Translations under genes and position numbers: made by a program
The notes under the pieces: generated by a model
What the model was told of the DNA's origin: nothing
The model's input: the letters and a program-made list of their open reading frames with translations, nothing else
Database searches by the model: none
Part shown: in pieces, positions 31,828 through 33,981 of the stretch
How positions within the stretch are numbered: the stretch's first letter is position 1
Layout: the number at the start of each line of letters is the position of its first letter
NCBI GenBank assembly: GCA_019637335.1
Contig: JAHBVV010000001.1
Span: 503,440 to 567,439, forward strand
Length of the DNA stretch: 64,000 nt
Reading direction: 5' to 3'
Origin: Candidatus Hydrogenedentota bacterium
Lineage (GTDB): Bacteria > Hydrogenedentota > Hydrogenedentia > Hydrogenedentales > JAEUWI01

Positions 31828-32262
31828 TCACTCGTCCAGCGCGAGGAGCCGCCGCAGCGGTTCCCGGTTCGCGGCCATATCCTCCAGGGTGTATTGGTCG
31901 AGCACCTGGAGAAAGGCGTCGAAGGCCTCTCCCAGGACCCCCATGAGCCGGCAGGCCGGCGTGATGACGCACTGGTTGCGCGACGCGTCGAAGCACTCCA
32001 CCAGATGGAAGTTGGGCTCGGTCCGGCGCACCACCTCGCCCATATTGATTTCGGACGGCGGATAGGCGAGCCGCAGTCCACCCTGCCTTCCCCGTGTTGT
32101 GGTAATGTATCCAAGTTTTCCCAGGTTGTGCACCACCTTCACGAGGTGGTTCCGGGAAATCCGGTAGCGCTCGGCGATCTCGGTAATGGTCGCGTTGTCG
32201 CCGCAGATGGCGAGATAGATGAGCGTGCGCAGGGCGTAGTCCGTGTACTGTGTCAATTGCAT
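31828..32262 (-). CDS. nsrR: Rrf2-family regulator, NsrR-type nitric oxide sensor
   Basis: A 144-residue Rrf2 protein starting at ATG 32262. The winged helix MQLTQYTDYALRTLIYLA, then ISRNHLVKVVHNLGKLGYI, is the NsrR form. Three cysteines, Cys90, Cys98 and Cys104 in VECFDASRNQCVI and TPACRL, fit the ligands of an NO-sensitive iron-sulfur cluster, and AFLQVLDQYTLEDM closes the domain as in NsrR. NsrR represses NO-detoxification genes until NO destroys the cluster. It is divergent from a truncated haemoglobin and a reductase, with a candidate operator between them. Cys spacing is slightly wider than in E. coli NsrR. Confidence 0.85.
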   Translation of the reverse strand: MQLTQYTDYALRTLIYLAICGDNATITEIAERYRISRNHLVKVVHNLGKLGYITTTRGRQGGLRLAYPPSEINMGEVVRRTEPNFHLVECFDASRNQCVITPACRLMGVLGEAFDAFLQVLDQYTLEDMAANREPLRRLLALDE

Positions 32263-32290
32263 GGGCCGGCACTCCAGGGCGGGTACGCGC

Positions 32291-32299
32291 AGTATAGCA
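32291..32299 (-). promoter_or_regulatory. Extended -10 promoter of the NsrR-type gene
   Basis: On the minus strand TGC-TATACT (complement of 32291-32299) forms an extended -10, with no good -35, 29 bases before the ATG at 32262. Confidence 0.45.
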
Positions 32300-32492
32300 C
32301 GCGCAGGGGGCTCGACGCGGCCTGATTCTCGGGGTGCTGGTATTTCGCCCGCGGCGAATCCCAGGCCATGCGGGCAGAGATGCCGGGGCTCCAACGCGCT
32401 CACCTTCATTGATTCGAGGCTCCAGATCGCCTCAAGTTCACCCCCATATGCCGCGAGCGGGTCTGAATGGGATTGCCCTGGCTTCGCGGGGC

Positions 32493-32521
32493 TTGACAAA
32501 TGGACCGGGGATCTATATGAT
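32493..32521 (+). promoter_or_regulatory. Sigma-70 promoter of the globin/reductase operon
   Basis: TTGACA at 32493-32498, exactly 17 bases, then TATGAT at 32516-32521. This is among the best sigma-70-like promoters in the window and it points at the haemoglobin gene, giving a leader of about 90 bases. Confidence 0.8.
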
Positions 32522-32539
32522 GCATTTTAAATACACGTT
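32517..32539. promoter_or_regulatory. Candidate NsrR operator overlapping the -10
   Basis: The left arm atgatgcattt (32517-32527) and right arm aaatacacgtt (32529-32539) around one central T match the enterobacterial 11-1-11 NsrR consensus at 19 of 22 positions. The site covers the -10 hexamer and the expected transcription start, the right place for repression. Confidence 0.75.
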
Positions 32540-32619
32540 TGGTGCGCCGGGCAGGCGCGCCGCGGGCGGGCGCCCGCCGTGTTTCTGGCAGCAACCCCTG
32601 GCAATGAAGGAGAAGCACA

Positions 32620-32991
32620 ATGAGCAATTTGTACGAGCAAATCGGCGGCGAGCCCGCGGTGAACGCGGCGGTGGACCTGTTTTACCGGCATGTGTTGAGC
32701 GATGATCGCATCGCGCATTTCTTCGACGGCGTGGACATGGAGCGGCAGGCGCAGAAGCAGAAGGCGTTCCTGACGATGGCGTTCGGCGGCCCGCACAACT
32801 ACACGGGCAAGGACATGCGGGACGGCCACGCGCACCTGGTGAAGCGGGGCCTGGACGACAGCCATGTGGACGCGGTGCTTGAGAACCTCTCGAAGACGCT
32901 CCAGGAGCTTGGGGTGGCGCAGAACCTGATCGATCAGGTGACGGCCATCGCCGAGAGCACGCGCGACGACGTGCTCGGCCGCACGGCATAA
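32620..32991 (+). CDS. Group I truncated haemoglobin
   Basis: A 123-residue trHbN-type globin. Tyr22 in LFYRHVLSD sits at the B10 position, and His70 in MRDGHAHLV is the expected proximal haem ligand; LSKTLQELGVAQNLIDQV is the usual C-terminal helix. Group I globins turn NO and oxygen into nitrate when supplied with electrons. The next gene, 15 bases downstream, codes for a ferredoxin-type reductase that could supply them. A promoter and NsrR-like operator lie upstream. Oxygen storage is an alternative but less likely given the context. Confidence 0.92.
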   Translation: MSNLYEQIGGEPAVNAAVDLFYRHVLSDDRIAHFFDGVDMERQAQKQKAFLTMAFGGPHNYTGKDMRDGHAHLVKRGLDDSHVDAVLENLSKTLQELGVAQNLIDQVTAIAESTRDDVLGRTA

Positions 32992-33006
32992 GGTTTTGGA
33001 CGCCCC

Positions 33007-33981
33007 ATGCCCGCTGTAACCTTTGAAGATCGATCATACGAACTGTTGGATGGCGAATCCGTGCTGGACTGCCTCACACGGCATGGTCACGAGATACCCA
33101 ACTCGTGCCGGAGCGGCATTTGCCACAGCTGCCTCATGCGCAAGACGGAGGGCGACGTGCCGCCGCCGGCGCAGAAGGGGCTGAAGCCGCAGCAACAGGC
33201 GCAGGGGTATTTCCTGTCGTGTTGCTGCCATCCGGAGGCCGATCTCGGGGTTACGCGGGCGGATGGGGCGGCGAAAAAGATTCCGGCGGTGCTGGTGGCG
33301 CGGGAGGTGCTGAACCACCGCGTCCTGCGGGTGATCCTGGAACCGATCGATGCGCTGGACTACTATCCGGGCCAGTTTGTGAATTTTGTGCGCCCGGGGG
33401 GCCTGGTGCGGAGTTTTTCGCTGGCGAGCGTGCCGGCGCTGGACTCGAAGCTGGAGTTTCACGTGGCGCTCGTGCCCGGCGGGCGGATGAGCGGGTGGCT
33501 TCACGCGGACGCGCAGCCGGGCGACGCGCTGGAGATTATGGGGCCGGTGGGGAACTGTTTCTATACGCCGGGGAAGCCGGAGCAGCCCTTGTTTCTACTG
33601 GGAACCGGGACCGGGCTTGCGCCGCTGTATGGCATCGCGCGGGACGCGCTGCAGCAGGGGCATACCGGTCCGATCCACCTGTTTCACGGGGCGCTGGTGG
33701 CCCGGGATCTGTACCTTACCGATGCGCTGCGATCGCTGGCGGCGGCCCATGCGAACTTCCATTACCACGCCTGCGTGCGCGACGAGGCGGGCGAGGCGTG
33801 GATGCTTCAGGGCGCGGTGGACGCACTGGCGCTGGAAACCGTGCCGAATCTGAAGGGCTGGAAGGTGTTTCTCTGCGGCCACCCGGATCTGGTGCGTCTG
33901 GCGCAGCGGAAGACGTTTCTGGCGGGGGCGAGCATGTCGGAGATCCATGCGGACGCGTTTTTGCCCGCGGGCGGCGGCTGA
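33007..33981 (+). CDS. [2Fe-2S] ferredoxin/FAD/NAD(P)H oxidoreductase, putative globin reductase
   Basis: A 324-residue electron-transfer protein. The plant-type [2Fe-2S] site is at the N terminus (Cys34, Cys39, Cys42 in SCRSGICHSCLM and Cys72 in FLSCCCHPE). The FAD site RSFSLASVP is at 135-143, and the NAD(P)H site GTGTGLAPLYGIA at 199-211. The order ferredoxin-FAD-NAD resembles Hcr and CDP-deoxyglucose reductases and the reductase half of flavohaemoglobins with an added FeS domain. It follows the globin with 15 bases between them, so the pair probably forms a split NO dioxygenase. Confidence 0.88.
   Translation: MPAVTFEDRSYELLDGESVLDCLTRHGHEIPNSCRSGICHSCLMRKTEGDVPPPAQKGLKPQQQAQGYFLSCCCHPEADLGVTRADGAAKKIPAVLVAREVLNHRVLRVILEPIDALDYYPGQFVNFVRPGGLVRSFSLASVPALDSKLEFHVALVPGGRMSGWLHADAQPGDALEIMGPVGNCFYTPGKPEQPLFLLGTGTGLAPLYGIARDALQQGHTGPIHLFHGALVARDLYLTDALRSLAAAHANFHYHACVRDEAGEAWMLQGAVDALALETVPNLKGWKVFLCGHPDLVRLAQRKTFLAGASMSEIHADAFLPAGGG

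Follow-up and report, generated by a model that had tools for sequence, protein, structure and literature searches.

NsrR is an NO-sensing Fe-S repressor of the Rrf2 family, and flavohaemoglobin (Hmp), an enzyme of NO detoxification under NsrR control, unites haem, FAD and NAD functions in one chain that has a 3/3 globin domain and no [2Fe-2S] cluster. The closest described system is that of Legionella pneumophila, which has no hmp, hcp, dnrN or nnrS, and in which the glbN-lpg2536 operon, encoding a cyanoglobin and a ferredoxin reductase, was predicted to be the sole NsrR target and suggested to oxidise NO as Hmp does (Rodionov et al. 2005, PMC1274295). This prediction was restated by Gardner 2012 (PMC3820574), who also argued that ferredoxin-reductase-like proteins serve as electron donors of truncated globins. 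In the alga Chlamydomonas, the truncated haemoglobin THB1 uses a Lys at E10 as the distal haem ligand and has NO dioxygenase activity (PMC4304232, PMC11904497). Group I truncated haemoglobin genes of Methyloprofundus have been reported as highly transcribed, and a 2024 paper on Hydrogenedentota and Sumerlaeota mentioned nsrR and glbN, each separately.

The window analysed here, 64,000 nucleotides in length, belongs to a Hydrogenedentota genome of 7.16 Mb in 55 contigs. The NsrR-type Rrf2 gene, the globin gene and the reductase gene that an earlier note had proposed for this DNA were all present at the positions given there, with the following features.

31828..32262, minus strand: NsrR-type Rrf2 repressor, 144 aa (Pfam Rrf2, NCBIfam NsrR, PDB 5n07)
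32493..32521, plus strand: sigma70-type promoter of the globin operon, TTGACA (32493-32498)-17-TATGAT (32516-32521) (sequence)
32519..32537, no strand assigned: NsrR operator-like palindrome GATGCATTTTAAATACACG (pattern search, recurrence in relatives)
32607..32612, plus strand: Shine-Dalgarno AAGGAG of the globin gene (sequence)
32620..32991, plus strand: group 1 truncated haemoglobin (GlbN/trHbN), 123 aa (Pfam, cyanoglobin 1s69, pocket residues)
33007..33981, plus strand: [2Fe-2S]-FAD-NAD(P)H reductase, BenC/GcoB-like, 324 aa (Pfam, NCBIfam, PDB 5ogx, Cys)

The repressor gene is divergent from the globin and reductase genes, which are separated by 15 bp from stop to start and lie adjacent behind the operator in the layout of the Legionella operon. 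The locus is probably an NsrR-controlled globin-reductase operon of a known kind in a new phylum, and the view that a two-gene version under NsrR was undescribed did not hold, as it had been predicted for Legionella by the first of the studies cited above (PMC1274295) and restated by the second (PMC3820574). Compared by published description, the two systems share a group 1 cyanoglobin-type globin and a ferredoxin-reductase gene in one NsrR operon, the lack of hmp and a proposed oxidation of NO, whereas the present one lies in a Hydrogenedentota-type genome and has its repressor gene divergent and adjacent.

The repressor matched the Pfam Rrf2 family at 2.1e-37, and NsrR (5n07) in the PDB at 7.5e-18. 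Among the NCBIfam models NsrR scored best (1.8e-44, 151 bits, under its curated cut-off of 182), followed by RirA with 128 bits and IscR with 46 bits, and the four other Rrf2 proteins of the same genome reached just 32-47 bits for NsrR. Cys90, Cys98, Cys104 and Asp8, which occupy the Fe-S ligand positions, were invariant in 16 aligned sequences. The open reading frame is readable from 32499; the start was set at M32262 because homology with NsrR 5n07 (from residue 1) and with 15 relatives begins there.

The palindrome, which the earlier note had not mentioned and is added by the present analysis, fits the published NsrR consensus gATGyAT-N5-ATrCATc (PMC1274295) and overlaps the -10 hexamer TATGAT of the globin promoter. 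Its core pattern would be expected by chance 0.01 times in the window, and pattern searches of the whole genome at up to two mismatches found five places, with none for a reversed control pattern. In relatives, an operator within 200 bp upstream of the globin gene and mismatched at no more than 3 of its 14 positions was found at 39 of the 49 loci with a divergent Rrf2 gene (12 of them perfect), and 4% of shuffled sequences passed the same criterion. TTGAC about 30 bp ahead of the operator was common to many relatives. In three relatives of the same genus the operator has diverged by 3 to 6 mismatches, as in GATTCATTTGAAATCTATC.

The globin matched Pfam Bac_globin at 3e-20, and the nearest structure was cyanoglobin 1s69 (3.3e-33). 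The Bac_globin domain, His F8, Tyr B10 and the closest similarity to group 1 structures place it in the trHbN group, and it is the only Bac_globin gene of its genome. The pocket is formed by Tyr22 (B10), Gln43 (E7), Lys46 (E10), Gln47 (E11) and the proximal position by His70 (F8), and the distal Tyr/Gln/Gln arrangement is of the NO dioxygenase kind established by work on trHbN. All six of Tyr B10, Phe CD1, Gln E7, Lys E10, Gln E11 and His F8 were identical in 81 of 81 globins. The alignment showed that E10 corresponds to His46 of Synechocystis GlbN, and distant globin paralogues carried other residues around this position. A family study cautioned that six-coordination may result from a His or Lys at E10 (PMC4720485); from this caution, the invariant Lys E10 and the distal lysine of THB1, the resting haem is predicted to be Lys/His-capped. 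THB1 resembles the present globin as a group 1 truncated globin with Lys E10, in its NO dioxygenase activity and in its dependence on an external reductase, but it is eukaryotic, takes nitrate reductase as reductant and has no NsrR.

The reductase consists of an N-terminal [2Fe-2S] ferredoxin domain (Fer2) followed by FAD_binding_6 and NAD_binding_1 in Pfam. Its plant-type Fer2 cysteines C34, C39, C42 and C72 (CX4CX2C..C) were invariant in 15 aligned sequences. NCBIfam PRK05713 matched at 1e-56, below its cut-off, and the cut-offs of specific subfamilies were not reached. The nearest PDB entry was the P450 reductase 5ogx (2.7e-43), and resemblance extended to carbazole dioxygenase reductase and the BenC/MmoC reductases; overall, the protein was most similar to the reductases of P450s and ring hydroxylases. 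P450 systems such as 5ogx share the Fd-FAD-NAD build and the delivery of electrons to a haem protein; their partner is a P450 and not a globin.

The pair shares with Hmp the haem, FAD and NAD functions and the proposed NsrR control and NO detoxification, but its truncated globin is of the 2/2 type and its reductase is a separate, BenC/GcoB-type protein that includes a ferredoxin domain, and the two systems are not homologous as wholes. An origin of the pair by fission of Hmp was rejected: with a globin of the truncated group 1 and a reductase whose closest kin are the BenC/GcoB types, the pair is an analogue of Hmp. Of the earlier proposal of a split flavohaemoglobin, the idea of a two-protein functional analogue under an NsrR-type repressor was well supported by linkage, operator, Cys ligands, pocket residues and the lack of Hmp, and the idea of descent was not. 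None of the 68 genomes of the phylum contained an Hmp above the curated PRK13289 cut-off, and the PRK13289 match in the window covered the reductase part only. One candidate flavohaemoglobin of about 432-439 aa in the same genome (contig C7, L133 1192-2490) was discarded, as it has no globin; its FAD/NAD domains resemble those of Hmp and stand between a membrane-like segment at the N-terminus and a Fer2 domain at the C-terminus, and its gene adjoins a multihaem cytochrome gene.

Conserved adjacency of the globin, the reductase and the NsrR-type gene in relatives, which had been put forward as a check on the proposal, was found both within the phylum and across GTDB. Within the 68 genomes of the phylum, a globin match was present in 21 and a close orthologue (65-84% identity) in 18, the window's own genome included. 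A divergent Rrf2 gene, globin and reductase occurred together at 16 of these 18; the other two (L036 and L028) were without the reductase, and in L028 the contig breaks off on the side of the regulator. None of the 11 distant globin paralogues (at most 38% identity) had a reductase or Rrf2 gene nearby, which makes them a useful internal control. In a genome of the same genus (L172), an operator-like site at 2069-2087 lies directly before a second divergent truncated globin gene (2092-2541, Bac_globin 1e-05).

Profile searches showed that the reductase gene lies directly downstream of the globin gene at 72 of the 80 best GTDB loci, which belong to Hydrogenedentota, Acidobacteriota, Methylococcales methanotrophs, Gallionellaceae and other Pseudomonadota. 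The count comprises 71 loci found by script and L103, whose reductase lies inside a longer open frame beyond the distance limit of the script. A divergent Rrf2 gene accompanied 46 of the 72 pairs, six pairs of Acidobacteriota had the Rrf2 gene downstream on the same strand, and 17 had none nearby. The Acidobacteriota six (L052, L053, L055, L056, L057, L064), with the order globin-reductase-Rrf2 on one strand, carry a variant form of the operator (GTTGCAT...) a short distance from where the globin starts, and the operator was present at all five of the testable ones. The upstream search of the 80 loci found no operator at the majority of those lacking Rrf2. Because 17 of the 80 loci have the globin-reductase pair but no nearby Rrf2 gene, and many of them also lack the operator, NsrR control of the pair is not universal.

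Other arrangements were observed as well. Four loci encode two globin domains per chain and have no reductase; these two-domain truncated globins (L090 775-1587, L097 3743-4738, L116 3479-4357, L123 3539-4357) carry an N-terminal extra or hydrophobic segment and no adjoining reductase gene. Methylobacter-type loci (L077, L091, L126, and also L092, L094, L125) have a second convergent globin copy near the first pair, mostly with a reductase. On a Methylocystis heyeri plasmid (L175 3001-4328), a divergent RNA polymerase sigma factor gene replaces NsrR beside the globin-reductase pair, and the gene of a globin on a Thiothrix plasmid (51% identity) is not flanked by a reductase gene. In the reductase tree, the proteins of Hydrogenedentota and Acidobacteriota formed one group (100/99), and the short globin tree likewise grouped most proteins of the two phyla (93/93), with two long-branched Hydrogenedentota rows elsewhere. 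This pattern fits a module that may have been inherited largely as a unit.

Operator-like sites were also found elsewhere in the genome. One lies upstream of nrfHA, encoding cytochrome c nitrite reductase (L014 5117-5133 = C13:96116-96132), and such a site also precedes nrfHA in G052, a genome from a different family of Hydrogenedentota (L160 2017-2035). In E. coli, nrf is repressed by NsrR (PMC12285233), and nrfHA is likely to be co-regulated with the globin-reductase operon, as judged from these sites. In a molybdenum-cofactor gene cluster, the palindrome ATGTATTTCAAATACAC (L013 5869-5885 = C12:105368-105384) lies about 60 bp ahead of moaA and marks this gene as a possible NsrR target. The site ATGCATTCCAAATACAT (L012 6064-6080 = C4:162063-162079) lies some 55 bp ahead of a porin gene of the Alginate_exp family, which is divergent from dxs. 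An operator search of 17 genomes at one mismatch returned many chance-like sites inside open reading frames; the hits of note were confined to nrfHA, a globin gene and a cupin gene.

With these results, we consider it probable that the locus is an NsrR-controlled two-component NO dioxygenase cassette, for which electron transfer and catalysis are predicted. Without NO, Fe-S NsrR bound to the palindrome over the -10 box would block the globin-reductase operon, as the operator position and the known biology of NsrR suggest. NO would destroy the NsrR cluster and the operon would be expressed. Electrons of NAD(P)H would then reach the haem of the globin by way of the FAD and [2Fe-2S] centres in the reductase, and the ferrous globin would bind O2 and convert NO to nitrate by means of the Tyr B10/Gln E7/Gln E11 pocket. 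At rest, the haem is predicted to be capped by Lys E10, like that of Chlamydomonas THB1. The cassette would fill the role of Hmp, which is apparently missing from the phylum. Against this reading weigh the NsrR score under its cut-off, with RirA fairly close, the diverged operators of the three same-genus relatives and the 17 pairs that have no Rrf2 gene in the vicinity.

The alternative that survives best, although we regard it as unlikely, is that the pair acts reductively at low oxygen (reduction of NO, nitrite or hydroxylamine, or NO denitrosylation) and not as an O2-dependent dioxygenase. Hmp is also capable of a reductive side reaction, the operator-like site before nrfHA suggests a nitrite-reducing, low-oxygen lifestyle, and a Lys E10 cap could favour a resting electron-carrier state; the distal pocket of the NO dioxygenase kind and the many aerobic methanotrophs among the carriers argue against such a route. 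It is very improbable that the reductase serves another oxygenase or a P450 and adjoins the globin through shared regulation only, as its nearest solved relatives (the P450, carbazole dioxygenase and BenC/MmoC reductases) might suggest, since the operon contains no oxygenase gene and the reductase stays beside the globin across phyla, even at loci lacking Rrf2 and on the Methylocystis plasmid. An iron or Fe-S sensor of the RirA or IscR type, by which the operon would answer iron status and not NO, is equally hard to credit despite the second rank of the RirA model, given the top NsrR score, the low NsrR scores of the other four Rrf2 proteins, an operator that fits the NsrR consensus and is kept across phyla, and the site before nrfHA, which fits NsrR as well.

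Beyond the probable NsrR-controlled NO dioxygenase cassette of this genome, we tentatively propose, with a confidence that falls somewhat short of even, a widespread and separately evolved class of NO dioxygenase, in which a Lys(E10)/His-capped truncated globin and a dedicated [2Fe-2S]/FAD reductase form an NsrR-operator cassette in several phyla, sometimes plasmid-borne, doubled or free of NsrR, and replace Hmp. The literature searched, largely open-access papers, yielded no description of the cassette's spread, of the invariance of Lys E10 or of the connection with nrfHA. If true, such a class would reveal which protein natively acts as electron donor to a truncated haemoglobin. The reductase kept beside the globin at 72 of 80 loci, mostly with a predicted NO-responsive operator, is a concrete candidate for this donor and makes the question directly testable. 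The cassette also suggests how bacteria without Hmp, such as Hydrogenedentota, may handle NO.
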